Source: Rhodohalobacter sp. 614A
GTDB taxonomy: Bacteria > Bacteroidota > Rhodothermia > Balneolales > Balneolaceae
Assembly (NCBI RefSeq): GCF_021462415.1
Contig: NZ_JAKEDS010000003.1
Span: 338,743-402,742, forward strand
Length of the DNA: 64,000 bases
Direction: 5' to 3'
Part shown: piece after piece, positions 33,719 through 49,081 of the stretch
Layout of the letters: each line of letters begins with the position of its first letter
How positions within the stretch are numbered: the stretch's first letter is position 1
Program-made: the position numbers and the translations under genes
Notes under the pieces: model-generated
The model's input: the letters and a program-made list of their open reading frames with translations, nothing else
Database searches by the model: none
Told to the model about the DNA's origin: nothing

Positions 33719-35161
33719 TCAACCCGCATAATATGATGAAATTAACTCTATCAATCCGGAGGTTGGCAGAACCGGTTCAATACCATAATAAACGGTTAAT
33801 ACTGCCAGCAGAATTAACGTCCATTTGAACATAAAACCGGGAGTTTTCATCGTGTATTCTTTGTGAGGTTCTTTGAAGTAGAGATAGACCATCACGCGCA
33901 AATAGTAGTAAACACTTGCCGCACTTGCCAGCACACCGATAATGGCCAATGGAACCAATCCGGCTTGAACCGCAGCGGCAAATACATAGTATTTTCCAAT
34001 AAACCCAACCATCGGCGGAATGCCTGCCAGCGAAAAGAGAAAAATGGAGAGCATCACTCCCATCACCGGAACTTTAAAACCGAGCCCGGCATAACTGTCA
34101 ATTTCAGTAAAATCGAGTCCGCGGTTTCTTTCATAATAGGCGATTACTCCAAAAGCGCCCGCGTTCATAATCGTATAAGCAAAAAGATAGTAGAGAACTC
34201 CGGTGTACCCTGCTTCCGTTCCGGCTGCCAATCCCACCAACAGATAACCGGCATGGGCAATACTGGAATAGGCCAGCATTCTCTTCACATTGTCTTGCGC
34301 CATTGCAATCAGGTTCCCCACTATCATAGTGATGATGGAAACGACCCTGATCACATTTTGCCAATCACCGATTTCGGAATTGGGTAACATTCTTGTTAAT
34401 ACTAAGATAAACGCAACGAATGTAGCGGATTTAACCGCCGTTGCCATAAAAGCCGTTAATGTTGTGGGCGTACCCTGATAAACATCTGGTGTCCACATAT
34501 GAAATGGAACGGCCGCTATTTTAAAGAAGAGACCTACAAGTAACAAACCTGTACCTGCGAGAAATAACAAACTCGGTTCAGCGGCCGCTGCAACAGCTTC
34601 TAAATTTGTAGCACCCGTTGCACCGTAAATCAGTGCAATCCCATAGAGAAGAAATCCCGTTGAGAAAGCCCCCAGGAGAAAATATTTCAAAGCTGCTTCT
34701 GCGCCGATCTTTTCATTTTTGAACAATCCGGCAAGTACATAAAGGCAGATCGACATCGTTTCGAGACTGATAAAAAGTGTAATCAAATCGTTGGTAACGG
34801 CAAGTCCCAGCATTCCTGTAATTGAAAACAGCATCAACCCATACACTTCGCCGTTGTGTAAGTCTAAATCCTGAAGATAATCCCGCGAAATAGTCACACA
34901 AAAAAGAGAACCCATTAACACCACTACCGAACCGAAAGCTCCAACACCCCCGTAAATAATCATCCCGGAAAAAGCTGTACCGGTTTCACCGTATAATGAC
35001 TGAATTGTGAATAACAATGCAATAGAAATTCCGCCGATAGTAACCCCAAATGTAAGATTTGCCGATTTCTTAAAGGCTTCCAGCATGATCGCTATCAAAC
35101 CGGCAAAAGCTACAATAACACCGGGTAAAAAAGTTTGTAGGTCCTGTAGGATTTCCATCAA
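33719..35161 (-). CDS. nuoN: NADH-quinone oxidoreductase subunit N
   Basis: A 480-residue antiporter-like membrane subunit of complex I with about 14 helices. The TM7 lysine is in LFFKIAAVPFHMWTPDVYQG and a further lysine in ATAVKSATFVAF, with the TM5 Glu in LFISLETMSICLYVLAG; LAYSSIAHAGYLLVGL is the usual TM10 motif. It is last in nuoL-nuoM-(pterin dehydratase)-nuoN. A GTP-like alternative start is not needed: the ATG gives MMEILQDLQTFLPGVIV, a normal N-terminus. Confidence 0.95.
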   Translation of the reverse strand: MMEILQDLQTFLPGVIVAFAGLIAIMLEAFKKSANLTFGVTIGGISIALLFTIQSLYGETGTAFSGMIIYGGVGAFGSVVVLMGSLFCVTISRDYLQDLDLHNGEVYGLMLFSITGMLGLAVTNDLITLFISLETMSICLYVLAGLFKNEKIGAEAALKYFLLGAFSTGFLLYGIALIYGATGATNLEAVAAAAEPSLLFLAGTGLLLVGLFFKIAAVPFHMWTPDVYQGTPTTLTAFMATAVKSATFVAFILVLTRMLPNSEIGDWQNVIRVVSIITMIVGNLIAMAQDNVKRMLAYSSIAHAGYLLVGLAAGTEAGYTGVLYYLFAYTIMNAGAFGVIAYYERNRGLDFTEIDSYAGLGFKVPVMGVMLSIFLFSLAGIPPMVGFIGKYYVFAAAVQAGLVPLAIIGVLASAASVYYYLRVMVYLYFKEPHKEYTMKTPGFMFKWTLILLAVLTVYYGIEPVLPTSGLIELISSYYAG

Positions 35162-35514: not shown

Positions 35515-35518
35515 CACT

Positions 35519-37267
35519 TTATTTGTTTGAGGTGAACGATTCTGTTTGAAAATTTATCCCGATATATCCTTTTTCAAAGCTATTCATTGTACAAAAGTCA
35601 TTGCGAGCGCGCGAAGCAATCTCCCCCTGATGATAAGGAAAATAAGATGTCTTCACTTCGTTTGTCATGACCATTTGGTTATGTGAAACATTTTCTACGT
35701 CATAAATTCTTGCGGTCCAGTCCGGCAGTTCTTCTGCTTTTGTTGATTCCAAAACCGCTACGCTTTTCTCTTCTGAGATAGTGATAAATGACTCCACCCA
35801 GTTCTCAGAATATTTTGTAAAGTCAACCGGCCTGATTCCAATCCAAACCATAAAAATTACAAGTGGAACCAACAGCCCGATTTCCCTTCCGTTGAGATCC
35901 ACAAGCTTTTTATTCTTCTCGTGTGTGATGGGACCAAACATCACTCGCTGATACATCCACAACATATACGCTGCGGCTAATATCACTCCAATAGCGGCGA
36001 AAACGGTATACGCATGATTTGCATAAAGCTCTGAGAAAAACGAACCGTTCAGAATTAAGAACTCTCCTACAAATCCATTCAATCCCGGCAACCCGATTGA
36101 TGCGAGCGTTGCAATCATAAAGAAAACGGCAAAGACCGGCATCTGTTTGGCAATGCCTCCAAAGTCAGAGATTTCGCGAGTATGAGCACGATCATAAATC
36201 ATTCCAACAATGAGGAAAAGCGCGCCGGTAGATAATCCGTGATTAATCATTTGAATGATGGCTCCCTGAACGGCTACCGTATTCAATGCAAAAATTCCAA
36301 GTACTACAAAACCAAGGTGGCTGACAGATGAGTAGGCAACCAGCTTTTTCACGTCTTTTTGCACCATCGCCACGAGGGCTCCATAGATTATTCCAATGAC
36401 GGCCAGAGCAGCCATGATCGGTGCAAATTCTGCAAATGCATTCGGAAAAATGGGCAAACAAACTCTTACTAAACCATACGTTCCAAGCTTCAGCATAATA
36501 GCAGCTAACACAACAGAACCAGCAGTTGGCGCTTCCGTATGTGCATAGGGAAGCCAGGTATGAAATGGAAAGAGCGGTACTTTGATACAAAATGCCAGGG
36601 CGAAAGCGAGGAACATCCACGTTTGTTCAACCAATCCCACAGTGTATGCCGGACTTGCTATAAATCTCCAGTCGGATGTAAATGCATAAACCCCTGAGGC
36701 TGCTCCGGCACTATACCCCAGGTAAATGAGCGCCACGAGCATAATCAACGATCCGACAAGGGTATAAATAAAGAATTTTATCGTTGCATGAATCTTGTTT
36801 TTCCCTCCCCAAATCCCAATCAAAAAATACATGGGAATCAAAGTCAGCTCGAAGAACACGTAAAAAACAACCAGATCGAGCGAGGCGAAAACACCGAGTG
36901 ATCCGGTCTGTAAAATCAACAACATGGAATAGTAACCAACAAGATTCTTACTGATCGAATCCCAGGATGAGAGAATTACAATGGGTCCCATCAACGTGGT
37001 GAGCATAAAAAGCAGAAGACTCAATCCATCCAGACCTACTAAATATTTTACATCCATTCCTGAAAAAACCGAACCGCCTTCGGTTACATATTGCGGAATT
37101 GCAGAACCGGCAATATCAAACTGAAATAATAAAGGCAATGAAAGCAAAAAAGTGATACTCGTAACAATTAGGCTTGTCCATTTTACTGCCTGTTCATTCC
37201 GAATGAACAAAAACGCCAGAATCCCCACAAGAGGAAAATAAATCGTGATATTTAATAAAATATCCAT
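35519..37267 (-). CDS. nuoM: NADH-quinone oxidoreductase subunit M, with repeat-derived C-terminal extension
   Basis: A 582-residue antiporter-like subunit of complex I. TM5 Glu in VVFYVFFELTLIPMYFLIGI, TM7 Lys in FCIKVPLFPFHTWLPYAHTE, TM10 motif VAYSSVSHLGFVVLGIFA. The membrane core ends near residue 500 (E. coli NuoM is 509 aa); about 80 further residues are not NuoM-like. Residues about 547-557 (QGEIASRARND) are the translation of a palindromic interspersed repeat at 35597-35628, so part of the tail was acquired by repeat insertion near the 3' end. The core residues are intact and the protein should function. The next gene starts 4 bp after the stop. Confidence 0.93.
   Translation of the reverse strand: MDILLNITIYFPLVGILAFLFIRNEQAVKWTSLIVTSITFLLSLPLLFQFDIAGSAIPQYVTEGGSVFSGMDVKYLVGLDGLSLLLFMLTTLMGPIVILSSWDSISKNLVGYYSMLLILQTGSLGVFASLDLVVFYVFFELTLIPMYFLIGIWGGKNKIHATIKFFIYTLVGSLIMLVALIYLGYSAGAASGVYAFTSDWRFIASPAYTVGLVEQTWMFLAFALAFCIKVPLFPFHTWLPYAHTEAPTAGSVVLAAIMLKLGTYGLVRVCLPIFPNAFAEFAPIMAALAVIGIIYGALVAMVQKDVKKLVAYSSVSHLGFVVLGIFALNTVAVQGAIIQMINHGLSTGALFLIVGMIYDRAHTREISDFGGIAKQMPVFAVFFMIATLASIGLPGLNGFVGEFLILNGSFFSELYANHAYTVFAAIGVILAAAYMLWMYQRVMFGPITHEKNKKLVDLNGREIGLLVPLVIFMVWIGIRPVDFTKYSENWVESFITISEEKSVAVLESTKAEELPDWTARIYDVENVSHNQMVMTNEVKTSYFPYHQGEIASRARNDFCTMNSFEKGYIGINFQTESFTSNK
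35597..35628. repeat. Interspersed palindromic repeat inside the 3' end of nuoM
   Basis: GTCATTGCGAGCGCGCGAAG followed by CAATCTCCCC is a recognisable form of the GTCATTGCGAG...GCAATCT repeat found scattered in many Bacteroidota and other genomes. TTGCGAG/GAAGCAA gives an imperfect hairpin. It is read through in frame by nuoM (see that entry). Confidence 0.7.
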
Positions 37268-37284
37268 AGAGTTTTTTCAGAATC

Positions 37285-39306
37285 TTAAAACAATAAAATT
37301 GCTAAAACGAGGATAACACCAAGTATCAAAAACAGTGCATAATTACTGGCAACTCCTGTTTGAATATACCGCAGAAGGCTTCCGCTTATCCGGACAAAAC
37401 CGGCCACGGCGTTTACAATTCCGTCCACAATTTTCATATCGAAAACAGCTAACCGTTTTTCTGAAAAGTTCACAATTGGAAACACAACTGCGCCCTCATA
37501 CAGCTCATCAAGACTGTATTTTTCTTTCCAGACGTTGTAAAAAGGACCGAATTTTGAAGAAATAAGAGCATCTGATTTTGTCTGCTGGTCATTGGCATAC
37601 ATCTTATATGCTGTATACACTCCGGTCACAGCAACCAAAATTGCAAAAATCATCATAATCCATTCGGTTGTGTGCGAGAGATCCAGCGGAATATCTGCCG
37701 CGATGGTGTGAAGCCAATCATGCAGCCAATGAATATGCGCTTCGTGTCCAGTAAATGTGGCCGCTATAAAATTTGGCAGCCCAATAAATCCGCCCACGAC
37801 AGATAGTGTTGCAAGTGCCCAAAGTGGGAGGGTCATTGTTGAAGGACTTTCATGAAGATATTCTTCCGAATCTTTCGCCTGCTTAAATAGCTTAGGAAGT
37901 TTAAAAGTGCCGTGAAACGTGGTGTAGGTTAACCTGAACATATAAAAAGCCGTCAGGAATGCCGTAATCGTTGCAACTCCCCAAAGAATGAAATACATCG
38001 CTCCGGCAAACTCTCCGAAACCCATATTAAAAGCGTGGATAACAATTTCATCTTTTGAAAAGAAACCGGCCAATGGAGGAATTCCGGCAATCGCGATGGT
38101 AGCAATCAAAAAAGTTTTATAGGTAGACGGCATGTATTTTCTCAATCCGCCCATATTCCGGATATCCTGCGGATCAAAATGGACACCCTTCCCGTCTTCG
38201 TGAAGCTTATGCTCTACATGCTCCATGGTATGAATGACAGATCCTGAACCAAGAAAAAGACAGGCTTTGAAAAATGCGTGCGTGATTACGTGAAAAATTG
38301 CAGCTGTAAACGCACCCGATCCAAGCGCCAAAAACATAAAACCCAATTGCGACACCGTGGAATAAGCCAGTACTCCTTTAATATCATTTTGGGTGATGGC
38401 GACCGTAGCGGCAACAATGGCTGTCAATGCCCCGATAACGGCAACAATCATCATTACTTCCGGGCTCATGGTATATAAAGGAGACATTCGTGTGATGAGA
38501 TAAATGCCTGAGGTTACCATGGTTGCTGCATGAATAAGAGCAGAAACGGGAGTCGGACCCGCCATTGCATCCGGGAGCCAGACAAATAATGGAATTTGAG
38601 CGCTTTTTCCGGTAGCCCCAATCAGCATCAGAAGGCCAATCCAAAAAATGGCATCGCCGCTAAACGCGCTCAGGTTTCCGAGAACCGCCTCAAAATTCAG
38701 GCTCCCAACCGTTTCAAAAATCATAAAGATCGCGACCAGAAATGCAAAGTCCCCTACCCTGTTATAAAGAAAAGCTTTTTTTGCCGCATTTGATTTCATC
38801 ATATCGGTATACCAAAAACCGATTAATAAATATGAACAGAGGCCCACACCTTCCCAGCCAAGAAATAACAGCAACAAATTATCAGCCAGAACCAAATTGA
38901 GCATTGCAAAAATGAAGAGATTCAGATAGGCAAAATATTTCCAGTAACCTTTATCATGGGCCATATATCCCATCGAGTAGAGGTGGATCAGCGAACCAAC
39001 TCCTGTCACCACGAGAGTCATAATCAGGGAGAGCTGATCGACCTGGTAGGCAATATCAACACTGAAGGTTCCTGTATTCATCCAGGTGAAGAGATGGGCA
39101 AAAGCCGGCTCTGCGTCTGCATCAATATTCAAAAACAAAAAGACCGCACAAAGAAAAGGAAGAAAAACTGCAAGGTTGGCAAGCGTACCGATTAACATTT
39201 TTTTACTTCGATAAGCGGTAGAGAAAAGCCCAACAATTCCATTAATTAAAAAACCGAATAGCGGTAAACCTATAATCAGACTTACGAGCGCTGTAGGTGA
39301 TTCCAT
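37285..39306 (-). CDS. nuoL: NADH-quinone oxidoreductase subunit L
   Basis: A 673-residue antiporter-like subunit of complex I with about 16 helices and the C-terminal lateral helix region that braces the membrane arm. TM5 Glu in LLFLGWEGVGLCSYLLIGFW, TM7 Lys in GATGKSAQIPLFVWLPDAMA, and LIHAATMVTSGIYL; Lys/His region LAYSTVSQLGFMFLALG. Somewhat longer than E. coli NuoL (613). First gene of the LMN cluster, 17 bp before nuoM. It diverges from the antiporter operon across 322 bp. Confidence 0.96.
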   Translation of the reverse strand: MESPTALVSLIIGLPLFGFLINGIVGLFSTAYRSKKMLIGTLANLAVFLPFLCAVFLFLNIDADAEPAFAHLFTWMNTGTFSVDIAYQVDQLSLIMTLVVTGVGSLIHLYSMGYMAHDKGYWKYFAYLNLFIFAMLNLVLADNLLLLFLGWEGVGLCSYLLIGFWYTDMMKSNAAKKAFLYNRVGDFAFLVAIFMIFETVGSLNFEAVLGNLSAFSGDAIFWIGLLMLIGATGKSAQIPLFVWLPDAMAGPTPVSALIHAATMVTSGIYLITRMSPLYTMSPEVMMIVAVIGALTAIVAATVAITQNDIKGVLAYSTVSQLGFMFLALGSGAFTAAIFHVITHAFFKACLFLGSGSVIHTMEHVEHKLHEDGKGVHFDPQDIRNMGGLRKYMPSTYKTFLIATIAIAGIPPLAGFFSKDEIVIHAFNMGFGEFAGAMYFILWGVATITAFLTAFYMFRLTYTTFHGTFKLPKLFKQAKDSEEYLHESPSTMTLPLWALATLSVVGGFIGLPNFIAATFTGHEAHIHWLHDWLHTIAADIPLDLSHTTEWIMMIFAILVAVTGVYTAYKMYANDQQTKSDALISSKFGPFYNVWKEKYSLDELYEGAVVFPIVNFSEKRLAVFDMKIVDGIVNAVAGFVRISGSLLRYIQTGVASNYALFLILGVILVLAILLF

Positions 39307-39628
39307 TTAACAGGTTACTTAGTTTGGCCTAATATCACGAGTCAATAATAGCAACTAAAAAAAAACAACAATAATTCAGGTGCAAAAGATACAAAATTCT
39401 TCTCCAACTTAAATTCGGCGAACCGCCATTCATGATTTGGTGAATTTTTTGGATACTAAAGCTGTTGACACCTGTAACTTTTAATAATTATTTTGGTTGG
39501 TTATCCAAAATTGCTTAAGGGGTAAGAATGTTTTAAAAGTTGCAAATTTAATTGCAGGTCATTCCACTTTTTTAATAAGTTATTTAGTATATCAATTTGA
39601 CGGGGACAACCTGCTACATTAATCACAG
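39307..39628. other. 322-bp divergent promoter region between nuoL and mrpE
   Basis: No coding sequence seen. It should hold the promoters of the nuoLMN operon (minus) and of the antiporter operon (plus). On the plus strand a candidate promoter is at 39465-39496. Two AT-rich tracts flank it. No large dyad was found beyond short GGCG/CGCC and TTCA/TGAA pairs near 39417-39445. Confidence 0.6.
39465..39496 (+). promoter_or_regulatory. Candidate promoter of the Mrp/Mbh-type antiporter operon
   Basis: TTGACA (39465-39470) followed after 17 nt by TTATTT (39488-39493), or, in the group's own form, TTG-N21-TATTTTGG (39489-39496, seven of eight matches to TAnnTTTG). Both readings give a start about 125 nt upstream of the first gene. 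Confidence 0.4.
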
Positions 39629-40192
39629 ATGTCGAAGTTTTCTTTTTTTAGTATTACAATGTCATTTATCTCCCTGATGCTCTTCTGGATTTTGATGAGC
39701 GGTTTCTTCGACGCTGTGCACCTTACATTCGGCGTTCTTTCTGTTGCCGGTGTACTTTTGTTTAACTATCAATTAAAAAAACACCGCTTTTATGCGGATG
39801 ACATGGACAACCTCGATGAACTGAGATTCTTTCGGGCTGTCTATTACTTCTTCTGGTTGGTGTATCAAATTATAATGGCCGGTTTTCATGTGGTCGGGAT
39901 TATCATGCGTCCCTCAATGCCGATTGAAACTTCCATTTTAAAATTCCGGGTTGATCTTCCCAGCTCTCACGCAAAAATGATTCTCGGCAATTCCATCACG
40001 CTTACTCCCGGTACCTTAACGGTTGAAATTGAAGGAGATCTTTTTACAGTTCATGCTCTGGATAAAGCATCTTATGCAAGCCTGGAAAATGATGAAATGC
40101 CCCGGCAAGTACTCCAGCTTTTTGAGAAAGAAGAACGCCAGGTAATCAAAGATTTTGAGGTAATTAAATCCATGGACAAGGAGAAATCATAA
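39629..40192 (+). CDS. mrpE: Na+/H+ antiporter subunit E (MrpE/MbhA-like)
   Basis: A 187-residue membrane protein: two N-terminal helices (about 10-50), a third near 70-90 (YYFFWLVYQIIMAGFHVVGI), then the cytoplasmic MrpE domain with ILGNSITLTPGTLTVEIEGD and LFTVHAL. First gene of the operon; its stop overlaps the start of the next gene (ATA-ATG region), with AAGGAG serving that gene. There is no strong ribosome-binding site for this start; an in-frame ATG 10 codons on is the alternative. Confidence 0.9.
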   Translation: MSKFSFFSITMSFISLMLFWILMSGFFDAVHLTFGVLSVAGVLLFNYQLKKHRFYADDMDNLDELRFFRAVYYFFWLVYQIIMAGFHVVGIIMRPSMPIETSILKFRVDLPSSHAKMILGNSITLTPGTLTVEIEGDLFTVHALDKASYASLENDEMPRQVLQLFEKEERQVIKDFEVIKSMDKEKS

Positions 40193-40464
40193 TGCATACT
40201 TTCTTTCTCCTTACGGCCATTGTTTTAACCATTATTATAGCCGTACCACTTGTGCGGGTTTTAAAAGGGCCAACGGTTTTTGACCGGCTGCTCGCCACAA
40301 ATGCTATCGCAACAAAAACAATTGTTTTGATCTGTCTGATTGGTTTTTTGTACGGACGAATCGACATGTTCATTGACATTACACTGGCATACGCCATTCT
40401 CGGTTTTGTGGGATCTGTGGTGATTGCCAAATATGTAATTTCATCCAAAGTTTTGCGGGATTGA
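40192..40464 (+). CDS. mrpF: Na+/H+ antiporter subunit F (MrpF/MbhB-like)
   Basis: A 90-residue protein with three helices (about 3-22, 34-54 and 58-80). The family signature VRVLKGPTVFDRLLATNAIA is present, as is the membrane Asp in GRIDMFIDITLAYAILGFVG. AAGGAG ribosome-binding site upstream. It sits between mrpE and mrpG with 1-bp spacings. Confidence 0.93.
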   Translation: MHTFFLLTAIVLTIIIAVPLVRVLKGPTVFDRLLATNAIATKTIVLICLIGFLYGRIDMFIDITLAYAILGFVGSVVIAKYVISSKVLRD

Positions 40465-40465
40465 T

Positions 40466-40792
40466 ATGACAGTAGCGGATATTATTTGCATAATCCTGGT
40501 TGTTATCGGCATCATTTTTATGCTGATGGGAAGTATTGGTATTCTCCGTCTGCCTGATTTTTACTCCCGTTCTCATGCAACAAGTAAAAGCGACACCCTC
40601 GGAATTCTGTTTGTGATTGCCGGGCTTGTCGTTTATGAAGGGCTTACACTCAGCGGATTCAAGCTCATCTTAATTATCCTCTTTATTGCTCTTGCCAATC
40701 CTATTGGAACACATGCACTTGCAAGATCTGCATTACAAAGAGGCCTGAAGCCATTCTTTAGTGAAGATGCAAAAAAAGGAGGTAAATCATGA
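40466..40792 (+). CDS. mrpG: Na+/H+ antiporter subunit G (MrpG/MbhC-like)
   Basis: A 108-residue protein with three helices (about 4-26, 46-64 and 68-88). The MrpG motif GSIGILRLPDFYSRSHATSK is intact and followed by DTLGILFVIAGLVVYEG and LANPIGTHALARSAL. The 3' end overlaps the next gene by 4 bp. Confidence 0.93.
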   Translation: MTVADIICIILVVIGIIFMLMGSIGILRLPDFYSRSHATSKSDTLGILFVIAGLVVYEGLTLSGFKLILIILFIALANPIGTHALARSALQRGLKPFFSEDAKKGGKS

Positions 40793-41034
40793 TTTGGGAA
40801 CTGGAACTTATTCTCTATCTCTTTTTGGTGATTTCCGGTGTAGTAGCGCTCGAGGTAAAAGATTTACTCGTTGCCGTTGTGATGATGTCTGTCTTTAGTT
40901 TCATAATGGCGCTTCTTTTTATATCAATGGGCGCCGTTGATGTTGGCTTTACAGAAGCCGTAATAGGTGCAGGTGTTACCGGAATTCTGTTTGTCGTTGT
41001 TGTCTATCAAACCACAAGAAAAACAAAAGATTGA
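40789..41034 (+). CDS. MbhD-like subunit (DUF4040; equivalent to a C-terminal part of MrpA)
   Basis: An 81-residue three-helix protein. The sequence ALEVKDLLVAVVMMSVFSFI and DVGFTEAVIGAGVTGILFVV match the domain that in long MrpA proteins follows the NuoL-like part, and that stands alone as MbhD in archaeal hydrogenase. A strong AGGAGGT ribosome-binding site precedes the ATG. Overlaps its neighbours by 4 bp on each side, so translation is coupled. Confidence 0.85.
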   Translation: MIWELELILYLFLVISGVVALEVKDLLVAVVMMSVFSFIMALLFISMGAVDVGFTEAVIGAGVTGILFVVVVYQTTRKTKD

Positions 41035-41336
41035 AATACCTGAAAGCTCTTATAATGGTAGCCTTTGCTGTGTTATTGATCTACGCAGCGTCTGATCTGC
41101 CCTACCGTGGCGATCCCGACAATCGTATGAATCAGGAACGAAGCATGATAAATACCCCCGTTGCAGGGAGTTATTACATCGAACATGCCTACCATGATGC
41201 TCATACGCCAAATATTGTTACTGTTGTATTAGGTGATTACAGGGGCGTGGATACATTTGGAGAGCAAATTGTAATTTTCACTGCCGGAATGATCACTATG
41301 CTGGTGCTTCGCCGATCAAGAAGGAGGAATTCGTGA
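41031..41336 (+). CDS. MbhE-like subunit (equivalent to the extreme C-terminus of MrpA)
   Basis: A 101-residue protein with a helix at each end (about 4-22 and 78-95) and a polar centre with the characteristic Pro-rich, Tyr/His pattern (ASDLPYRGDPDNRMNQ; GSYYIEHAYHDAHTPNIVT; VVLGDYRGVDTFGEQIVIF). TTG start overlapping the previous TGA (TTGA). It corresponds to the MbhE module. Confidence 0.82.
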   Translation: MKYLKALIMVAFAVLLIYAASDLPYRGDPDNRMNQERSMINTPVAGSYYIEHAYHDAHTPNIVTVVLGDYRGVDTFGEQIVIFTAGMITMLVLRRSRRRNS

Positions 41337-41773
41337 GAAGTCAATTTAACAGTCCGATTATTGTTTTGGGAGCCAGGTTTTTAGCTCCGTACATCATGGT
41401 GTTTGGACTGTACGTAATTTTCCACGGGCACTACAGCCCCGGCGGAGGTTTCCAGGGAGGAGCACTTCTTGCAGCAGCCATTTTGTTGATACGGGTGGCT
41501 ACGGGTCGCCGGGTATCCCGCCTGCAACTCAAAGAATTTGCAACCACGCCGCTTGCGGTAATTGGTGTTGTTATTTACTTCGCTACCGGCCTCACAGCTA
41601 TGATAGCCGGTGGATATTTTCTTGATTACGGACAACTCCCAATCCCCGGAATGGATCCGGTTTGGCTCAGGTATACCGGAATTTTAATCATTGAAGTGGG
41701 CGTAGGCTTAGCGGTAACAGCTATTCTTGTCATGATTTTCGACAATATGGTTAAAGGAGAAGATTATGCTTGA
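41333..41773 (+). CDS. mrpB: Na+/H+ antiporter subunit B (MrpB/MbhF-like)
   Basis: A 146-residue protein with four helices (about 10-30, 38-55, 70-95 and 113-135). Signature FHGHYSPGGGFQGGALLAAA is intact. The start is GTG overlapping the previous stop (GTGA), supported by a strong AGGAGG 6 nt upstream; a strong ribosome-binding site with a GTG start is the deciding evidence. Overlaps mrpC by 8 bp. Confidence 0.93.
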   Translation: MRSQFNSPIIVLGARFLAPYIMVFGLYVIFHGHYSPGGGFQGGALLAAAILLIRVATGRRVSRLQLKEFATTPLAVIGVVIYFATGLTAMIAGGYFLDYGQLPIPGMDPVWLRYTGILIIEVGVGLAVTAILVMIFDNMVKGEDYA

Positions 41774-42137
41774 TTTCTTTTTCGGACACTATGCGTATTG
41801 GTTTAGCATCATTCTATTTTCCATAGGGATGTACGGCATTCTGTTTAAGAAAACGCTCATTAAAAAGATTATCGGGCTGGCTATTTTGCAATCATCCGTA
41901 ATCCTTTTTTTCGTATCGGTTGCATCCAAAGTTGACGCAACAGTGCCCGTTTATGATGCTTCAATACCTGTGGAGCAGGTTGCAAATTATCTGAATCCGC
42001 TTCCCCACACCCTTATGCTTACCGCTATCGTAGTTGGAGTTGCAACCCTTGGAGTGGCCTTTACTCTTTTGATTGCCATTTACAACCGGTATCAAACATT
42101 GGATGAACAAGAATTGATAGAAAAAATCCATGATTGA
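41766..42137 (+). CDS. mrpC: Na+/H+ antiporter subunit C (MrpC/MbhG, NuoK-like)
   Basis: A 123-residue three-helix protein homologous to NuoK. The family pattern 'SIGMYGILFKKTLIKKIIGL...QSSVILFFV' and LPHTLMLTAIVVGVATLGVA is present (split here for length). AAGGAG precedes the ATG. It overlaps mrpD by 8 bp. Confidence 0.93.
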   Translation: MLDFFFGHYAYWFSIILFSIGMYGILFKKTLIKKIIGLAILQSSVILFFVSVASKVDATVPVYDASIPVEQVANYLNPLPHTLMLTAIVVGVATLGVAFTLLIAIYNRYQTLDEQELIEKIHD

Positions 42138-43620
42138 GTCACAACTGCCCGCTCTTATTGCTCTTACGTTTGCGCTCTTTGCAGTTCTAATTGCCCTGTT
42201 GGGCCTGTGGAAAAGTTCCTATTCGCAACCCCTCGCCGTTATCGGAGCCGGAGTCGCTACAACACTTTCCCTGTTTGGATTTATCAACTATCTGAATAAT
42301 GGCGCCATACGGTATTTCTTTGGTGGATGGGAACCGCCCATCGGTATCGAATTTATGTATGACGGGCTATCGTCGTTCATGGTTCTCGTTATCAATAGCG
42401 TGGCTTTACTGGTTCTGATCCATGCAAAACACATTTCCGCCCGTGAATACCCCGGCAAGGAAATGCCTTATTTCACGCTCTCCATGCTCATGATGTTGGG
42501 CTTCAACGGAATGGTTCTGACGGGTGATTTATTCAACTTTTACGTTTTTCTTGAGATTTCATCCCTCTCAAGCTATGCTTTGATTTCAATTGGAGAAAAA
42601 CCGGCGCCATTTTCCGCTTTCAGGTATTTGATCATTGGAACCACAGGCGGAACTCTCTATCTGCTGGGGCTTGGTTTTTTGTACACCCTAACCGGCACAC
42701 TCAACCTGGTTGATATGTCCGGAATGCTGCCGATGGTTGCGGACAATACCGCGGTAGTTGCCGCTCTTATTTTAATGATCGTTGGAATTGGTGTAAAAGC
42801 CGCCCTCTTCCCCATGCATGGTTGGCTGCCGGATGCGTACACCTACGCATCTTCAAGTTCTACAGCGTTGATTGCTCCGGTGGGGACAAAAGTTGCGGCC
42901 TATATGCTTTTCCGCATCGTTCTCTATCTTTTTGGGGTTGAATTGATTGATGCAGTGGCCCCGCTTACAACCGTTCTCGGCGTGTTGGCATGCCTTGGAA
43001 TTCTGTACGGCTCCATTATGGCGATCGCACAAACCGAATTAAAACGAATGCTGGCGTTCAGCAGTATTTCCCAAATAGGTTACATTATTATGGGCCTTAG
43101 TTTAGCCAATCCGTTTGGGTTTGCCGGGGCTCTGCTTCATGTGGTAAATCATGCAGCTATGAAAGCCTGTCTCTTTTTGGTTTCCGGAAATTTAAGGATG
43201 AAAGAAGGTCATACCGATATCACGAAATTTGATGATTCATTCCGAAAAAAATATCCGTGGTCAATGGCGTCTTTTACGGTCGCAGCTATTTCTATGGTTG
43301 GACTTCCGCCACTTGCCGGGTTTTTCAGTAAGTGGTACCTGGCACTCGGAACCATCGAGAATAATAATTGGCTTTTTCTGGCAGTAATCCTGATTAGTTC
43401 GCTCCTCAATGCCGTGTACTTCTTCAGAATTATTGAAAAAGTGTATATGAAAAATCCCGACGAAACTAGTCAGGAAACCGAAACGGTCAAGCCCAAAAGA
43501 AATGAGGTTCCAGCCAGCATGCTGACTCCAACTGTAATTCTTGCAATCAGCCTTTTTGTTATCGGATTGGCAAATGCAGCCATCGTAGGATTTTTGATGG
43601 GTATTTATCCCATGCAATAA
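42130..43620 (+). CDS. mrpD: Na+/H+ antiporter subunit D (MrpD/MbhH-like)
   Basis: A 496-residue membrane protein with about 14 helices, homologous to NuoL/M/N. TM5 Glu in TGDLFNFYVFLEISSLSSYA, TM7 Lys223 in GIGVKAALFPMHGWLPDAYT, and a further Lys in APVGTKVAAYMLF; TM10-type motif LAFSSISQIGYIIMGLS. The key charged residues are intact. It is the first of three antiporter-type subunits in the operon. A palindromic repeat lies in the 152-bp gap to the next one. Confidence 0.95.
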   Translation: MIESQLPALIALTFALFAVLIALLGLWKSSYSQPLAVIGAGVATTLSLFGFINYLNNGAIRYFFGGWEPPIGIEFMYDGLSSFMVLVINSVALLVLIHAKHISAREYPGKEMPYFTLSMLMMLGFNGMVLTGDLFNFYVFLEISSLSSYALISIGEKPAPFSAFRYLIIGTTGGTLYLLGLGFLYTLTGTLNLVDMSGMLPMVADNTAVVAALILMIVGIGVKAALFPMHGWLPDAYTYASSSSTALIAPVGTKVAAYMLFRIVLYLFGVELIDAVAPLTTVLGVLACLGILYGSIMAIAQTELKRMLAFSSISQIGYIIMGLSLANPFGFAGALLHVVNHAAMKACLFLVSGNLRMKEGHTDITKFDDSFRKKYPWSMASFTVAAISMVGLPPLAGFFSKWYLALGTIENNNWLFLAVILISSLLNAVYFFRIIEKVYMKNPDETSQETETVKPKRNEVPASMLTPTVILAISLFVIGLANAAIVGFLMGIYPMQ

Positions 43621-43659
43621 AAGGTTCAAAGATGAACTCAATCTTGAAATTAATAAATA

Positions 43660-43737
43660 GTCATTCCGAACTTGATTCAGAATCTCATAGCGATCATCGT
43701 TTTATAACTTGGGATCCTGAGTCAAGCTCAGGATGAC
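43660..43737. repeat. Paired palindromic interspersed repeat between mrpD and the second antiporter subunit
   Basis: The left arm GTCATTCCGAACTTGATTCA (continuing GAATC, 43660-43684) and right arm GATCCTGAGTCAAGCTCAGG (continuing ATGAC, 43713-43737) are imperfect inverted copies of one another. Each arm is itself a small hairpin, for example TCCTGAG/CTCAGGA on the right. This is a familiar repeat type in Bacteroidota intergenic regions, of the small palindromic (REP-like) class. It splits the operon but contains no clear terminator T-tract. Confidence 0.65.
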
Positions 43738-43772
43738 TAAAGTAGTCATGACACTTTAAAAAAGTATAATTA

Positions 43773-45254
43773 ATGGACATTTCTATCGTCCCCTTACTGG
43801 CAATTTTAACATCACTGGCGGCTGTGCCATTGATCCTGTTCAGCAGCAAAAAACCAAATCTGCGTGAAGGCTGGACCATCCTTGCCGGTGTTGTAAAATT
43901 TGGTCTCGTTTTGTCGTTGCTTCCCGGAGCCATTGCCGGAAAAAGCGTAGAACTGCATCTGTTTAATCTCGCCCCCGATATGCCGTTTGCATTGAATGCA
44001 GACCCGCTCGGGGTTTTCTTTGCTGTCATTGCATCCGGTCTTTGGATTTTTACATCGTTCTATTCTATCGGGTATATGCGCGGAGCCGGTGAGAAAAAGC
44101 AAACCCGCTATTTCGCAAGTTTTGCCGTTTGTCTTTCTGCCACAATCGGGATTGCATTCTCGGCCAACCTCCTCACATTTATCGTGTTCTACGAAATGTT
44201 GACGCTGGCCACCTATCCCCTTGTGATTCATAAAGAAACGAAGAAAGCCATCAATGCCGGGCGAAAATATTTATCCTACACTTTAACGGCCGGATTATTA
44301 CTGATTGCCGCAGCCGGGTTAACTTATTACTACACCGGTTCCATCGATTTTAATCCTGAAGGAATTTTCGGGAATGCCAATATTCCTCATACAGCCATGT
44401 TGGTTACCTTCATCCTGTTTCTTGGAGGCGTAGGCGTGAAAGCCGGTATTATGCCACTCCATAGCTGGCTGCCTTCAGCAATGGCCGCTCCCACCCCGGT
44501 AAGTGCTTTGTTGCACGCCGTAGCTGTGGTTAAGTCCGGCGTATTTGCTGTAATTCGTGTTACGGGATTTGTATTTGGAACAGATGTAATGGCTTCCTAC
44601 GGCTTAAATGATATTCTCATTGTTCTTGCCGGAGCGACGATCATTCTGGCTTCACTGCTCGCATTTGCTCAGGATAATTTAAAACGGCGGCTGGCCTATT
44701 CAACCGTGGGGCATCTCTCCTATATCGTTTTGGGTGTAGCTTTGATGACACCCCTCGGAATGCAGGGAGGAATTATGCATATTGCCGCTCACGCTACAAT
44801 GAAAATCACGCTATTCTTTTGTGCAGGAGCTATTTATGTAAACCTTCATAGGGAAAATATCAGTCAATTAAACGGAATTGCAAAGGTCATGCCCTGGACA
44901 ATGGCCGCATTCACTATTGGCTCGATGGGTCTGGCCGGAGTTCCGCCACTCAACGGATTTGTAAGCAAATGGTTTCTGGCAATGGGATCACTCCAGGGAG
45001 ATATGATATTGCCGTTAATCATCCTGATCATTAGCGGACTTTTAAATGTCGGATACTTCTTCCCCATTATTCAAAGAGCGTATTTCAGAAAGGGCGAAGG
45101 ATTGGAAAAATATGGCGAGGCATCTCCTTTCATGGTGGTTCCGTTGTTTACCACGGCCGTTTTATCAATTTTATTCGGATTATTCCCGAATCTGTTTTTC
45201 CACTTTTTTGATTTGGCAACCTCCATCGCAAGCAGTTTGTTTTCCGGTGGATGA
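43773..45254 (+). CDS. Second NuoL/M/N-like antiporter subunit
   Basis: A 493-residue membrane protein with about 14 helices. TM5 Glu in LLTFIVFYEMLTLATYPLVI, TM7 Lys223 in GGVGVKAGIMPLHSWLPSAM, Lys in HAVAVVKSGVFAVI and TM10-type LAYSTVGHLSYIVLGVAL are present, so proton translocation residues are intact. It is not a tandem copy of mrpD; identity is confined to motifs. It probably takes the place of the N-terminal antiporter domain of MrpA, which is missing here. Overlap with the next gene is absent (27-bp spacing). Confidence 0.88.
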   Translation: MDISIVPLLAILTSLAAVPLILFSSKKPNLREGWTILAGVVKFGLVLSLLPGAIAGKSVELHLFNLAPDMPFALNADPLGVFFAVIASGLWIFTSFYSIGYMRGAGEKKQTRYFASFAVCLSATIGIAFSANLLTFIVFYEMLTLATYPLVIHKETKKAINAGRKYLSYTLTAGLLLIAAAGLTYYYTGSIDFNPEGIFGNANIPHTAMLVTFILFLGGVGVKAGIMPLHSWLPSAMAAPTPVSALLHAVAVVKSGVFAVIRVTGFVFGTDVMASYGLNDILIVLAGATIILASLLAFAQDNLKRRLAYSTVGHLSYIVLGVALMTPLGMQGGIMHIAAHATMKITLFFCAGAIYVNLHRENISQLNGIAKVMPWTMAAFTIGSMGLAGVPPLNGFVSKWFLAMGSLQGDMILPLIILIISGLLNVGYFFPIIQRAYFRKGEGLEKYGEASPFMVVPLFTTAVLSILFGLFPNLFFHFFDLATSIASSLFSGG

Positions 45255-45281
45255 AATGATTGAACTTAATCACACAGAATT

Positions 45282-45497
45282 ATGAAAACCTGGCACTGGA
45301 TCGTTTTAGGAGTTTTGGCTCTGATCACACTGATCCTTGAGTTTACGGTTTTAGCAGATTATCACCATCATTGGTGGAATTCCATCCCCCTGTTTTATGG
45401 GATTTACGGATTCCTGGGATGTATAGTCACAATCTTTTTAGCGAAAGGACTGGGCAAATTGTTCATTTTTAGAAACGAAGGATATTATGATCGTTGA
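45282..45497 (+). CDS. Small two-helix membrane protein in the antiporter operon
   Basis: A 71-residue protein with two helices (about 5-26 and 37-57) and a His-rich loop between them (ADYHHHWWNSIPLFYG). Unrecognised family. It overlaps the third antiporter gene by 11 bp and follows the second by 27 bp, so it is a conserved-looking operon member. The three successive His could bind metal (speculative). Confidence 0.75.
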   Translation: MKTWHWIVLGVLALITLILEFTVLADYHHHWWNSIPLFYGIYGFLGCIVTIFLAKGLGKLFIFRNEGYYDR

Positions 45498-47208
45498 TTT
45501 GATTTTTATACCGGCCGTCGTGATGATCCTCGGAGCGTTTATTCTTCCTCTGCTCCCCGAAAAAACACGATCCTCAGCTTTTTTGGTTTTCCCTTTGATT
45601 GCCTTGGTCAGCCTCTGGCAATATCCGAATGATTTTTCTCTATCTTTGCATTTTGGAAGTTATGAACTGATACCCGTCTATGTTGACGGGCTCAGCCGGG
45701 TTTTCGCTATTGCTTTTGCTCTTGTTGCCCTTATCGGCGGAGTGTATGCACTGCATCTCAAAGATGTGGGTCAGCAAAGCTCCGCACTTGTTTATGCCGG
45801 AGGAGCATTAGGTGTAACTTTAGCCGGAGATTATTTCACATTATTTGTCTTTTGGGAGTTGATGGCCGTTAGTTCCGTTTATTTAATCTGGGCCAGAAAA
45901 ACCGAAGAGACCGACCGAGCCGGAATGCGTTATTTAATCGTTCACATGTTTGGCGGCGGCCTGCTGATGGCCGGAATCCTATGGCACGTTTCAGAAACCG
46001 GTTCACTTTTGGTTGAAAGTTTACCCTACGAATTTACCTGGCCGTCTGTCTTGATGCTGCTTGGAATCGCCGTAAATGCTGCTGTCCCTCCACTACATGC
46101 CTGGCTGGCAGATGCGTATCCAAAAGCCACCATTACCGGTGCCATTTTCATGTGTGCCATCACAACAAAATCTGCTGTTTATGTGATGGTTCGCCTATTC
46201 CCGGAATGGAGCATTCTTATTTGGGTTGGTGTAATGATGGGAATCTATGGAACCATTTTCGCTCTCATTTCAAACGATATCCGCCAAATTCTTTCTTACT
46301 CCATTGTCAGTCAGATTGGTTATATGGTAGCTGGTGTGGGAATTGGTTCCGAAATGGCTTTGAATGCAGCTACCGCCCACGCCGTAAATAATGTGCTGTT
46401 CAAATCTCTTCTTTTTATGGGAGCCGGTGCTGTAATCTATGCAACGGGCAGAAGCAAACTCACAGAGCTCGGCGGACTTGCGGGTAAAATGAAAGCCGTT
46501 GTAGCTCTCTACCTTGTTGGCGGATTGGCCGTATCGGGCGCACCATTGTTCAACGGGTTTACCAGTAAAACCATGGTTGTCAGTGCCGCAGGTGAAGCTC
46601 ATCTGGAATGGGTAATGTTACTGCTGACAATCGCGTCCATCGGATCCTTCTTGCACAGCGGATTAAAGCTCCCCTACTTTACATGGTTTGGAGAGGCAAA
46701 AGAAGAGATCACCAATATCAAACCCATCCCAAAAAACATGATTGCCGGAATGGGAATCGGAGCGTTTTTCTGTATTCTTATCGGAGTTTATCCCGATGCG
46801 CTTTACAGTCAACTGCCATATCCTGTTGAGTATCATCCCTATGATGTTTATCACCTCGTAGAGATGGTTCAGATTCTTGTTTTTGCCTTCATCGGGTTCT
46901 GGCTCTTCAGAAACAAATTTGCCGGAACGGATAACATTCTTCTGGATTTTGACTGGTTCTATCGAAAAGCGCGTCCCGCAACCGAGAAAATATTCGTCAC
47001 AAGTGTGGACAGAATTTATGGTTATGCTGAAAATGCTACGCTTTGGATGGCAGGGTTTCTGACTGAAAAATTCAGAGATCCGTTGGTCTGGCTTCATCCC
47101 TTTACGGAATCCAAACAGGAAGCCTCAAAATACAGCCACGCTGTGGAAGTGGTAATGAGTTTTATTCTCCTCACATTCGTGATCTTTGCGTTGGTTTATT
47201 TCATATAA
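45487..47208 (+). CDS. Third NuoL/M/N-like antiporter subunit, with TM7 Lys replaced by Asn
   Basis: A 573-residue membrane protein with about 14 helices plus a C-terminal extension with a long amphipathic stretch (LLDFDWFYRKARPATEKIF) and a final helix. TM5 Glu is present (YFTLFVFWELMAVSSVYLIW) and a Lys in AITTKSAVYVM, but the conserved TM7 lysine is Asn197 (IAVNAAVPPLHAWLADAYPK). TM10-type SYSIVSQIGYMVAGVGIG is present. It is the last gene of the operon. The substitution suggests a changed proton path or a structural role in this subunit. Confidence 0.88.
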   Translation: MIVDLIFIPAVVMILGAFILPLLPEKTRSSAFLVFPLIALVSLWQYPNDFSLSLHFGSYELIPVYVDGLSRVFAIAFALVALIGGVYALHLKDVGQQSSALVYAGGALGVTLAGDYFTLFVFWELMAVSSVYLIWARKTEETDRAGMRYLIVHMFGGGLLMAGILWHVSETGSLLVESLPYEFTWPSVLMLLGIAVNAAVPPLHAWLADAYPKATITGAIFMCAITTKSAVYVMVRLFPEWSILIWVGVMMGIYGTIFALISNDIRQILSYSIVSQIGYMVAGVGIGSEMALNAATAHAVNNVLFKSLLFMGAGAVIYATGRSKLTELGGLAGKMKAVVALYLVGGLAVSGAPLFNGFTSKTMVVSAAGEAHLEWVMLLLTIASIGSFLHSGLKLPYFTWFGEAKEEITNIKPIPKNMIAGMGIGAFFCILIGVYPDALYSQLPYPVEYHPYDVYHLVEMVQILVFAFIGFWLFRNKFAGTDNILLDFDWFYRKARPATEKIFVTSVDRIYGYAENATLWMAGFLTEKFRDPLVWLHPFTESKQEASKYSHAVEVVMSFILLTFVIFALVYFI

Positions 47209-47349
47209 GTAAACATTCTCTCAGAGAAAATGGCCAGGGAACAAGAGCAAGGTGATATGGCTCTATACCTTAAGTTGTGGTAAAGTTTCTGCTTCAACTG
47301 ATTCAGTTAATATTTATACCTCAATTGATTTTCTCCTATCTTAAACCCC

Positions 47350-48420
47350 ATGGGATTATTACTCTTTTATTTAGTTTTAGCAATAGGTGTCTCCTTTCTT
47401 TGTTCAATTCTGGAGGCTGTATTACTATCCATTACTCCCTCCTATGTTGCCGTTCTGGAAAAGAATGAGAGCAAATCAGGAAAGATTCTTCGGGACCTGA
47501 AGGAGGATATTGACCGACCACTTTCCGCTATTTTAAGTCTGAATACCATTGCACACACCATTGGTGCGGCTGGCGTTGGTGCACAGGCACAAGTTGTATT
47601 TGGCAATGCTTATGTAAGTCTAACTTCAGTCGTTTTAACATTGGCTATCCTGGTTTTTTCGGAAATCATCCCAAAAACCCTGGGTGCAACCTATTGGAAA
47701 AAACTCTCGGGTTTTGCCGCCAGAGCCACAAAAATATTGATTATTTTAACGTATCCTCTTGTACTTCTTTCAAAAGGAATTACCAATCTGATCGCCAGCG
47801 AAGACAAACAACCGTCGGTCAGCCGCGAAGAGTTTAGTGCCATGGCTGAACTGGGCCACGAAGAAGGTGTCTTTGAAAAAGAGGAATCCAATATTTTCAA
47901 AAATCTCATCCGGTTCAATTCGCTTCGGGTAAAAGACATCATGACACCCAGAATTGTGGTGGTCAAATACCCGGAAAAGATTGCAATAAAAAAAGTAATG
48001 GAAGACCAGGATAAGCTGTGGGTTTCGCGCATTCCGGTTTTTGAAAATGACGAAGAAAATATCACGGGATATGTGCTCAAAAACGATGTCTTTTTAAAAT
48101 TTTCGAAAGGTGAGGGAGATAAACAGCTTAAAGATATCCGGCGTGAAGTGCTCATTATACCCGAAAATGTTTCGATCAAAACACTGTTTGCAAGACTTCT
48201 GGAATCACAAGAACATATTGCTGTTGTAGTTGATGAATACGGTGGATTTTCCGGTGTTGTGACGATGGAAGATGTCGTTGAAACTCTCCTGGGAATGGAA
48301 ATTGTAGATGAAATTGATGCCATTGATGACATGCAAAAACTGGCCAGAGAAAAATGGAGAGAAAGGGCCAAACGCCTGGGAATTCCGCTGCCGGGTTCCG
48401 TAAAAAAAGAAGAAGAGTAG
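47350..48420 (+). CDS. CNNM/DUF21 transporter with CBS domains, lacking the CorC/HlyC domain
   Basis: A 356-residue membrane protein. The DUF21/CNNM membrane domain (about 1-165) has the usual SILEAVLLSITPSYVAVLEK, LNTIAHTIGAAGVGAQAQVV and ILVFSEIIPKTLGATYWKKL. Two CBS motifs follow (about 200-255: IMTPRIVVVKYPEK; 265-325: AVVVDEYGGFSGVVTMEDVV). The C-terminal CorC/HlyC domain found in most relatives (430 aa) is absent, replaced by about 30 charged residues. Family role: Mg2+/Co2+ efflux or homeostasis. It is 140 bp after the antiporter operon and convergent with the next gene. Confidence 0.9.
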   Translation: MGLLLFYLVLAIGVSFLCSILEAVLLSITPSYVAVLEKNESKSGKILRDLKEDIDRPLSAILSLNTIAHTIGAAGVGAQAQVVFGNAYVSLTSVVLTLAILVFSEIIPKTLGATYWKKLSGFAARATKILIILTYPLVLLSKGITNLIASEDKQPSVSREEFSAMAELGHEEGVFEKEESNIFKNLIRFNSLRVKDIMTPRIVVVKYPEKIAIKKVMEDQDKLWVSRIPVFENDEENITGYVLKNDVFLKFSKGEGDKQLKDIRREVLIIPENVSIKTLFARLLESQEHIAVVVDEYGGFSGVVTMEDVVETLLGMEIVDEIDAIDDMQKLAREKWRERAKRLGIPLPGSVKKEEE

Positions 48421-48433
48421 CTACTTTTTAAAT

Positions 48434-49081
48434 TTAACCTATCATCGGTGTTTTGGCAGAAAACGGTACCGGTTGTTCCGCTGAATCCAGCATCCACTTT
48501 GCCACATCGCCGCGGGTAATGCTTTTTGTCAACCCATAATGGTTTATCATTTCTACTTTACCGGTTGGCGCTCCATCCTTTAGAGTAACCGGACGGACGA
48601 CCATCCAATCAAGTGGGGTTTTCTCAAAAGTGGATTCCATGTTTGCAAGGTCTTTATAAGCTACTCTTATATTACTATTTAAGATCAGCCAGCGAAGAAC
48701 CGGATTCACCGAATGGATGCTCTCTCTTACACCCGCTGCAGTAATGCCGACGAATCGGGCTATGTTATTCTGAGGCATAAGTTTTACCAGCATTTTTGCA
48801 ACACGGGTTGTCAGATCCTCTGGCGAAGCAAGATCTGACCATGGGTTCCAGGGTTTTTCCCGTTTGATTCCAAGGGCCGAAATCACCACATCACATCCAC
48901 TTATTCCTTCCTCCAACACTTTTTTATCTAGCACATTGCCGCGGATGAGCTCAATTTCTTGCGGTGTTTCAAACGGTGTTTCAGGACGAACGACAGCACG
49001 AACCGTATGTCCTCTTTCAGCAGCAAGTTTTACGAGCCAGCGTCCACATCCGCCGGATGCGCCAAGAATCAATAACTTCAT
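48434..49081 (-). CDS. NAD(P)-binding atypical short-chain reductase
   Basis: A 215-residue Rossmann protein of the NmrA/atypical-SDR type. The cofactor-binding Gly-rich motif is at the start (LILGASGGCGRWLVKLAAER), followed by VVRPETPF and a conserved GNVLDKKVLEEGISGCDVVI. The catalytic Tyr-3x-Lys is not evident, which is common for this class. Substrate unknown. Its start overlaps the stop of the upstream small lipoprotein gene by 4 bp (ATGA), so the two are translationally coupled. It is convergent with the CNNM gene, with a 13-bp gap. Confidence 0.83.
   Translation of the reverse strand: MKLLILGASGGCGRWLVKLAAERGHTVRAVVRPETPFETPQEIELIRGNVLDKKVLEEGISGCDVVISALGIKREKPWNPWSDLASPEDLTTRVAKMLVKLMPQNNIARFVGITAAGVRESIHSVNPVLRWLILNSNIRVAYKDLANMESTFEKTPLDWMVVRPVTLKDGAPTGKVEMINHYGLTKSITRGDVAKWMLDSAEQPVPFSAKTPMIG

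Follow-up and report, generated by a model that had tools for sequence, protein, structure and literature searches.

We analysed a 64,000-nucleotide stretch of the genome of Rhodohalobacter sp. 614A (hereafter the window, to which all positions refer) and found that eleven genes on the same (+) strand, at 39629-47208, form an operon-like run in which most genes overlap or nearly abut. We report here the genes, their order and families, their key residues, their phylogeny and the predicted fold of one subunit. The operon probably encodes one membrane complex, a stand-alone Mrp cation/proton antiporter of the group 3 type without mrpA, in which the antiporter-like subunits D1 and D2 would serve as channels and a third, D3, as a clamp. 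Group 3 Mrp systems have been defined by the absence of mrpA, and some have several copies of mrpD (PMC8415708; here and below, citations refer to excerpts of the papers). All eleven open reading frames (ORFs) were found at the coordinates and with the lengths given in an earlier note on this DNA, and the antiporter operon that it had proposed was borne out in reading frames, lengths and families. The features are as follows (TM, transmembrane helix):

39629..40192, + strand: mrpE (MbhA-like), 187 amino acids; PF01899 (MNHE), 100.8 bits
40192..40464, + strand: mrpF (MbhB-like), 90 amino acids; PF04066 (MrpF_PhaF), 55.6 bits
40466..40792, + strand: mrpG (MbhC-like), 108 amino acids; PF03334 (PhaG_MnhG_YufB), 95.6 bits; NF009314 and TIGR01300 above cut-off
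40789..41034, + strand: MbhD-like gene, 81 amino acids, counterpart of part of the MrpA C-terminal domain; PF13244, 65.4 bits; TEA motif
41031..41336, + strand: MbhE-like gene, 101 amino acids, TTG start, counterpart of part of the MrpA C-terminal domain; PF20501, 40.5 bits; DTxGE motif
41333..41773, + strand: mrpB (MbhF-like), 146 amino acids, GTG start; PF04039 (MnhB), 92.9 bits; PGGGF motif
41766..42137, + strand: mrpC (MbhG-like), 123 amino acids; PF00420 (Oxidored_q2), 75 bits
42130..43620, + strand: D1 = mrpD (MbhH-like), 496 amino acids; Proton_antipo_M; best PDB relatives MbsH (6u8y_H) and MrpD (7qru_D)
43773..45254, + strand: D2, second antiporter-like subunit, 493 amino acids; Proton_antipo_M; NF005561/NF006236, 578/560 bits, below cut-off
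45282..45497, + strand: X, small two-helix membrane protein, 71 amino acids, from alignments and an AlphaFold model; C-terminal motif of the type (K/R)-x-E-D-Y-Y-D
45487..47208, + strand: D3, third antiporter-like subunit, 573 amino acids; Proton_antipo_M; NF009310 above cut-off; Asn197 at the TM7 lysine position
46075..46077, + strand: codon of D3 Asn197

Ten of the eleven genes scored above the curated Pfam cut-offs, including the three Proton_antipo_M (PF00361) proteins, and a weak NADHdeh_related match on D3 was the sole Pfam match below a curated cut-off. Homologues of MrpE, F, G, B, C and D thus lie in one operon and, as in group 3, mrpD-like genes are present while the PF00361 search of the genome showed mrpA to be absent. 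Among the NCBIfam models, D3 passed the equivalog NF009310/PRK12668 (657.6 bits against a cut-off of 564), and the best models for D2 (PRK07234/PRK08375) and D1 (PRK12662) are of the MrpD type, with both proteins below cut-off. The genome searched (4.69 Mb, 99.3% complete) encodes six PF00361 proteins (NuoL, NuoM, NuoN, D1, D2 and D3), one MNHE (PF01899) gene, which is the mrpE of the window, and one PF00346 gene. The PF00346 gene lies some 170 kb away, at about 554-562 kb of the same contig, within genes that by eye form a nuoA-H run. These counts therefore leave no full-length mrpA, none of the six PF00361 proteins being MrpA, and, by the PF00346 search, no further large subunit of Mbh or Nuo type; neither that search nor the downstream genes revealed a hydrogenase or ferredoxin-oxidising module, PF00374 not having been searched. 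As a result, three statements of the earlier note held: MrpA is missing as a long protein, its C-terminal modules are separate genes (the MbhD-like and MbhE-like ones, both above the Pfam cut-offs), and no hydrogenase genes were found after the run in MbhA-H order.

We then compared the residues of the antiporter-like subunits, using the window's NuoL as the ruler for the columns. At the TM7 position, Lys was found in 44 of 44 D1 and 82 of 82 D2 sequences, and Asn in all 90 D3 sequences, namely 42 from Mrp contexts, 37 from nuo contexts, 8 without an assigned context, 2 from haloarchaea and that of the window. Since many of the D3 sequences are related, these do not represent 90 independent events. 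The TM7 Lys is also present in the window's NuoL, NuoM and NuoN and in 101 of 102 other sequences, the remaining one having Glu. An alignment-free scan for the TM7 motif gave Asn in 88 of the 90 D3 and Lys in 79 of the 82 D2 sequences; in the five odd ones the scan had matched elsewhere or nowhere, and the correct motif shows Asn or Lys. None of the search patterns used in the species scan described below includes TM7; the TM5 Glu falls within one pattern and the DFDWFYRK stretch within another. With charged residues at TM5, TM7, TM8 and TM12 taken as the mark of a proton pump, the window's D1 and D2 carry all four, and D3 lacks the one at TM7 only. D1 has Glu at TM5 and Lys at TM7, TM8 and TM12, the TM8 column showing Thr in 2 of 44 sequences, both haloarchaeal, and D2 has His and Lys together at TM8 in 82 of 82. 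At TM8, MrpA has been reported to carry His and Lys, NuoL His only, and MrpD, NuoM and NuoN Lys only (PMC7419157). D3, in which the TM7 lysine is absent, is thus probably not an ordinary proton pump.

The motifs of the sodium part were also retained, with PGGGF in MrpB in all 38 sequences from Mrp contexts, DTxGE in 28 of 29 and TEA in 22 of the 23 sequences found. MrpF carries DR...xN in 24 of 37 sequences, including that of the window, and its Asn occupies a site which we take to be that of Asp38 of Bacillus subtilis MrpF, a residue of the sodium path.

An AlphaFold2 model of D3, built from 47 sequences and with a mean predicted local distance difference test score (pLDDT) of 90.5 overall, showed a core of 14 helices followed by TM15 (residues 454-473), a horizontal helix (490-528) and TM16 (551-572). 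Foldseek ranked MrpA first for this model, and the top PDB sequence match of D3 was MbsH', with 27% identity in VIA-align. Counted from the DxDW motif onwards, the D3 tail has a median length of 89 residues (range 71-116) in 41 sequences from Mrp contexts and of 103 (range 100-129) in 27 from nuo contexts, with overlapping ranges; the 8 sequences without an assigned context were kept apart, and 11 of 87 lacking the motif (9 nuo, 2 mrp) were left out. By eye, the tails from nuo contexts resemble the C-terminus of NuoL.

The small protein X is predicted to form two helices (residues 3-22 and 38-62; mean pLDDT 86.6, predicted template modelling score 0.51). A profile of X, built from 61 sequences to which most of the loci counted contributed, detected X where phmmer with the window's X failed, and in all 79 loci with enough sequence for it placed X immediately ahead of D3 (36 mrp, 35 nuo and 8 without an assigned context), one locus of the 80 being cut off; it also matched in six of six relatives from the phylum and in pSymA. 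X had no NCBIfam match, six X sequences had no Pfam match above cut-off, and the profile found no convincing relative in the PDB (best E-value 0.24).

In a tree of 118 antiporter-like subunits, made by a quick method with support from the Shimodaira-Hasegawa-like approximate likelihood ratio test, D1, D2 and D3 each formed one clade (99, 100 and 100, all starred), and the window's three proteins fell in their own clades beside Balneolaceae neighbours. D3 grouped with three sequences of the hydrogenase-4 subunit B (HyfB) type (81) and with MbsH' (84), and the wider grouping added MrpA and NuoL (89), none of these values being starred. One reference sequence each for HyfB, MrpA and MrpD was confirmed above the NCBIfam cut-off (L014, L026 and L024, respectively).

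The assembly of this complex, the positions of its subunits, the direction of transport, the ion and the stoichiometry are what we infer in the following proposal. MrpE, F, G and B, the MbhD- and MbhE-like proteins and MrpC would form the sodium side, and D1 would sit beside MrpC and act as MrpD. D2 and D3, with the MbhD- and MbhE-like genes, would cover the job of a single MrpA: D2 would be the second proton channel, with a TM8 His-Lys pair as in MrpA, and D3 would clamp the row of antiporter-like subunits by its C-terminal horizontal helix and last anchor helix, with X as a small subunit at the D2-D3 joint. The membrane potential would then drive protons in through D1 and D2 and sodium out, and the role would be salt and pH homeostasis. 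The canonical model is an exchange of two protons for one sodium ion, with channels in MrpA and MrpD (PMC9568556). The mrpA-less mrpEFGBB'CD of Pyrococcus furiosus plays a part in how growth depends on pH and probably uses Na+; since it has been proposed to take Na+ in and move protons out as the pH falls (PMC8415708), the direction of transport may depend on conditions.

Several observations weigh against this reading, and those on D3 favour a rather unlikely alternative in which protons pass through each of the three antiporter-like subunits; the complex would then move more H+ per sodium than a canonical Mrp and could work at a lower membrane potential or a higher salt concentration. All 90 D3 sequences retain the TM5 Glu, the TM8 Lys and the TM12 Lys, the TM5 stretch being itself a search pattern, and with these three charged positions left proton conduction by D3 may still be possible. 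MbsH, which has Glu219 at TM7 where MbsH' has Lys217, is still proposed as a proton pump (PMC7684303), so that the TM7 Lys is not absolute and varies across the superfamily; the complex I relatives, too, are counted as ion-pumping subunits (PMC9040806). As for the clamp, the C-terminal part of the D3 model is weaker, and the tail is less sure than the core because its block means of pLDDT are 51-87 from residue 481; VIA-align scored D3 about level against NuoL (Z 45.5), MrpD (45.0), MrpA (44.3) and MbsH' (43.9). In the 118-sequence tree, D2 forms a separate clade not joined to MrpA, the place of D1, beside MrpD or NuoN, has a support of 58, and the deep forks are weak; the program warned of long end branches, those of MbsH' and MbhH included, and of meeting long branches. 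On the sodium side, an acidic-V/L/I-G-V motif tried in MrpB was found in only 27 of 38 sequences. Against conduction by all three subunits stands the uncharged Asn at TM7 of every D3 sequence, where D1, D2 and NuoL, NuoM and NuoN have Lys, and an uncharged residue throughout one sampled family is, as far as the sequences go, a different matter from the Glu of MbsH. Since D3 has Asn for the TM7 lysine in 90 of 90, the "three ion channels" of the earlier note are doubtful, even with the other charged positions kept, and two canonical proton channels, D1 and D2, with a clamping D3 are the better reading. The earlier interpretation as a whole is thus partly supported.

To see how widely the genes occur, we scanned one genome per species (84,980 species) and kept 80 of 321 D3 relatives. 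Contexts were labelled from the neighbouring genes, as mrp where at least three of E, F, G, MbhD and MbhE or a high-scoring D1 were found, and as nuo where weaker PF00361 proteins followed D3. This gave 36 Mrp loci, 36 complex I loci and 8, mostly on short contigs, without an assigned context. The hosts of the 80 include Balneolaceae, Ignavibacteriales, Chloroflexi, Acidobacteria, Firmicutes, Verrucomicrobia, sulfate reducers, many Proteobacteria and one Methanoperedenaceae archaeon. In 11 of the 36 Mrp loci all eleven genes were matched by phmmer to different ORFs, and in others ORFs of some 175-340 amino acids suggest fusions of MbhD, MbhE and B, or a small gene went undetected. Within the phylum, the D3 family scored above cut-off in 7 of 148 genomes, including the window's own; in five of the other six all eleven genes were matched, arranged as in the window, and the remaining genome, whose contig is cut short, has D2, X and D3. 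Among 14 control genomes there were matches in 13 and none above cut-off, Haloferax volcanii included. Plasmid records with D3 relatives numbered 106 at E 1e-60 and 114 at 1e-40, adding rhizobial and haloarchaeal ones. The Mrp cassette with D2-X-D3 is thus widespread in bacteria; the MbhA-H gene order that the earlier note had described is confirmed as such, and its reading as an archaeal or rare type is not supported. A split-gene artefact of one genome was rejected as well, since separate D2, X and D3 recur in relatives.

Some loci depart from this layout. A rearranged cassette in L051 (9778-17700) reads X-D3-E-F-G-MbhD-B-C-D1-D2. The proteobacterial L088, L094 and L101 contain C-D1-D2-X-D3 and were counted as mrp by C and D1 alone; E-F-G were not found near these cassettes, and in L094 and L101 a different ORF of about 480-490 amino acids lies ahead of C. 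An Elusimicrobia contig (L085, 5165-7301) has X and D3, with no D2 found, and the ORF with X starts like another membrane protein, perhaps by an insertion or an assembly join.

In the 36 complex I loci (for example L041, L050, L068, L081, L067 and L118), D2-X-D3 stands where nuoL would be, between nuoK and nuoM/nuoN. On pSymA of Sinorhizobium meliloti the order is nuoJ-nuoK-(D2, 84-amino-acid hypothetical protein, D3)-nuoM-nuoN-nuoA-C-D-E-F, and in Desulfoferrobacter suflitae (L050) Pfam identified NuoB, C, D, H, J and K, then D2 and D3, between which X lies, and then two more PF00361 proteins. Four further loci of this kind were inspected by eye, and in L068 a PF00361-type gene sits between the nuoK-like gene and D2. 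When 20 of the 71 weaker PF00361 proteins from nuo loci were taken at random, 8 fell in the NuoM clade and 12 in the NuoN clade of the tree. The layout of the trio in S. meliloti and L050 agrees with the rhizobial "green complex I" already in the literature, where two subunits of the MrpD type take the place of NuoL (Degli Esposti and Martinez Romero 2016, via PMC9040806).

We next joined D2 and D3 per locus, leaving out the D3 tail, in a tree of 78 loci (42 Mrp, 34 nuo and 2 haloarchaeal). The nuo loci formed one clade (99, starred), so that a single change of context is needed, and this clade is nested among the Mrp loci at forks of 94 and 90, both unstarred, the root being assumed at the two haloarchaeal Mrp loci. 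The window's D2 and D3 group with the Mrp loci, apart from the complex I ones, and both trees thus reject D2 and D3 as stray complex I subunits. The two extra antiporter-like subunits belong with the Mrp genes, as the earlier note had supposed, both by these trees and by the eleven-gene set in five of six phylum relatives; the outcomes looked for as refutation, an mrpA elsewhere in the genome and a place for the window's D2 and D3 among the complex I sequences, were not found. The simplest account is that the trio was apparently recruited once, from Mrp to complex I. We propose, tentatively, that D2-X-D3 may be a transplantable substitute for MrpA, with D2 as a channel and D3 as a non-pumping clamp, which arose in Mrp and entered complex I once in place of NuoL.

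Genes of complex I also flank the operon in the window, where nuoL runs divergently from mrpE and nuoL-M-N are split from nuoA-H:

37285..39306, - strand: nuoL, divergent neighbour of the operon; NF005141 and TIGR01974 above cut-off
35519..37267, - strand: nuoM; TIGR01972 above cut-off
33719..35161, - strand: nuoN; TIGR01770 above cut-off

Genes of the nuoL/M/N type adjoin the Mrp cassette in several lineages (the window, L033, L116, L117, L038 and L088). A one-strand nuo run encloses the Mrp cassette in L123/L124 (genome G055, contig 20, about 30-45 kb): nuoJ and nuoL, both recognised by eye, and nuoM are followed by about 1.5 kb of unassigned sequence, mrpE ... D3 and nuoN. Downstream of the window's operon are a CNNM/GldE-like CBS protein (47350-48420) and a GntP-type gluconate:H+ symporter (49631-51076).

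It is improbable that this Mrp is linked physically or in regulation with complex I, by docking on it or sharing D2-X-D3 with it. Such a link would agree with the divergent nuoL beside mrpE in the window, L033, L116 and L117, with the nuoL- and nuoM-type genes ahead of mrpE in L038, with the G055 cassette between nuoM and nuoN of one run and with the apparent single entry of the trio into complex I; however, 31 of the 36 Mrp loci have no further PF00361-type gene in the flank covered, the window's genome has a canonical NuoL, and the gene neighbourhood may have been inherited within a few lineages.

D1 and D2 are separated by a 152-base gap that contains a palindrome resembling repetitive extragenic palindromic (REP) elements:

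43663..43740, no strand assigned: palindromic REP-like repeat, sequence read by eye

Allowing up to two mismatches, a genome-wide search matched this repeat 8 times and a reversed control pattern twice. Rfam gave no match over positions 30000-50000 of the window, and promoter-like sites (18, against 17.3 in shuffles, standard deviation 3.8) and terminator-like sites (13, against 9.8, standard deviation 3.2) occurred at about the rate of the shuffles and were not used. That D2-X-D3 is a separate complex merely housed in the same operon is least probable of all: the gap and repeat part the trio from D1, complex I operons contain the trio but no E-F-G, and X-D3 precedes mrpE, away from D2, in L051, but D2 follows C-D1 in Mrp contexts across many phyla, the complex without D2 or D3 would retain a single antiporter-like subunit, and in complex I the trio takes the place of a structural subunit.

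We finally compared the operon with the closest known systems. The mrpEFGBB'CD operon of P. furiosus shares the order E-F-G, MbhD/MbhE-like, B, C, D and the absence of mrpA and of a redox module, but it has one D, fused MbhD and MbhE and no D2-X-D3. "Ca. Nitrospira alkalitolerans" has a group 3 Mrp with two NuoM/NuoL-like genes after mrpD, read as mrpA/mrpD-like; the excerpt contains neither a small protein nor a residue analysis, the comparison is by description, and because the text speaks of mrpA-G the identity of the layout is not sure (PMC7784846). Haloarchaeal plasmids (Natronorubrum aibiense, Halostagnicola larsenii) carry E-F-G-DUF4040-MnhB-C-D1-D2-D3 with a D3 of the same family and Asn at TM7, but their MrpE is about 345 amino acids long, the MbhD/MbhE-like part is in one DUF4040 gene, D2 has a long hydrophilic insert (by eye) and the profile search found no X. 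A fusion of X into this D2 (623-640 amino acids) was considered and rejected: the additional residues resemble a hydrophilic insert, and the X profile had no significant match there (best E-value 0.25).

Green complex I shares the D2-X-D3 order and the TM7 Asn of D3, and differs in having the trio between nuoK and nuoM in the place of nuoL, no mrpE-G and D3 tails that by eye look NuoL-like; the window was not assigned to it because its trio follows mrpD, a canonical nuoL is present at 37285-39306 and the tree places it among the Mrp loci. The membrane-bound hydrogenase (Mbh) and sulfane reductase (MBS) share the MbhA-H order (mapping per PMC7419157), and MbsH' has a horizontal helix, but their hydrogenase or sulfane reductase genes are absent from the window's operon and MbsH' keeps the TM7 Lys217 (PMC7684303); both were rejected, as no redox genes were found among the neighbouring genes or by the PF00346 search. 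The canonical group 1/2 Mrp complexes (7QRU, 6Z16, 7D3U) have homologous subunits of the same fold, with one long MrpA against the D2, D3, MbhD-like and MbhE-like genes here, and were rejected since the operon has no long MrpA fused to MbhD/MbhE-like domains. Already known, then, are group 3 Mrp systems with several mrpD, a similar locus in Ca. Nitrospira alkalitolerans, the PRK12668 family in NCBIfam and complex I variants that use two MrpD-like subunits. In the excerpts of the literature searched, we found neither X nor the TM7 Asn of D3 nor a single Mrp-to-complex I transfer mentioned, Degli Esposti 2016 and Chadwick 2018 lying outside the search.

The ancestral stock of complex I is held to have been close to Mrp antiporters. 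The operon offers a natural Mrp in which one of three antiporter-like subunits lacks the TM7 lysine, together with a trio able to take the place of NuoL, and in it the pumping of each subunit and the role of the horizontal helix can be tested directly. Should D3 not pump, green complex I would have three canonical pumps and not four. If D2-X-D3 is indeed a substitute for MrpA with a non-pumping D3, the proton numbers in print for complexes that contain two "MrpD-like" subunits would be one too high, and X would be an overlooked subunit of both complexes. The finding is thus also relevant to the energy yield that has been claimed for complex I variants containing additional subunits.

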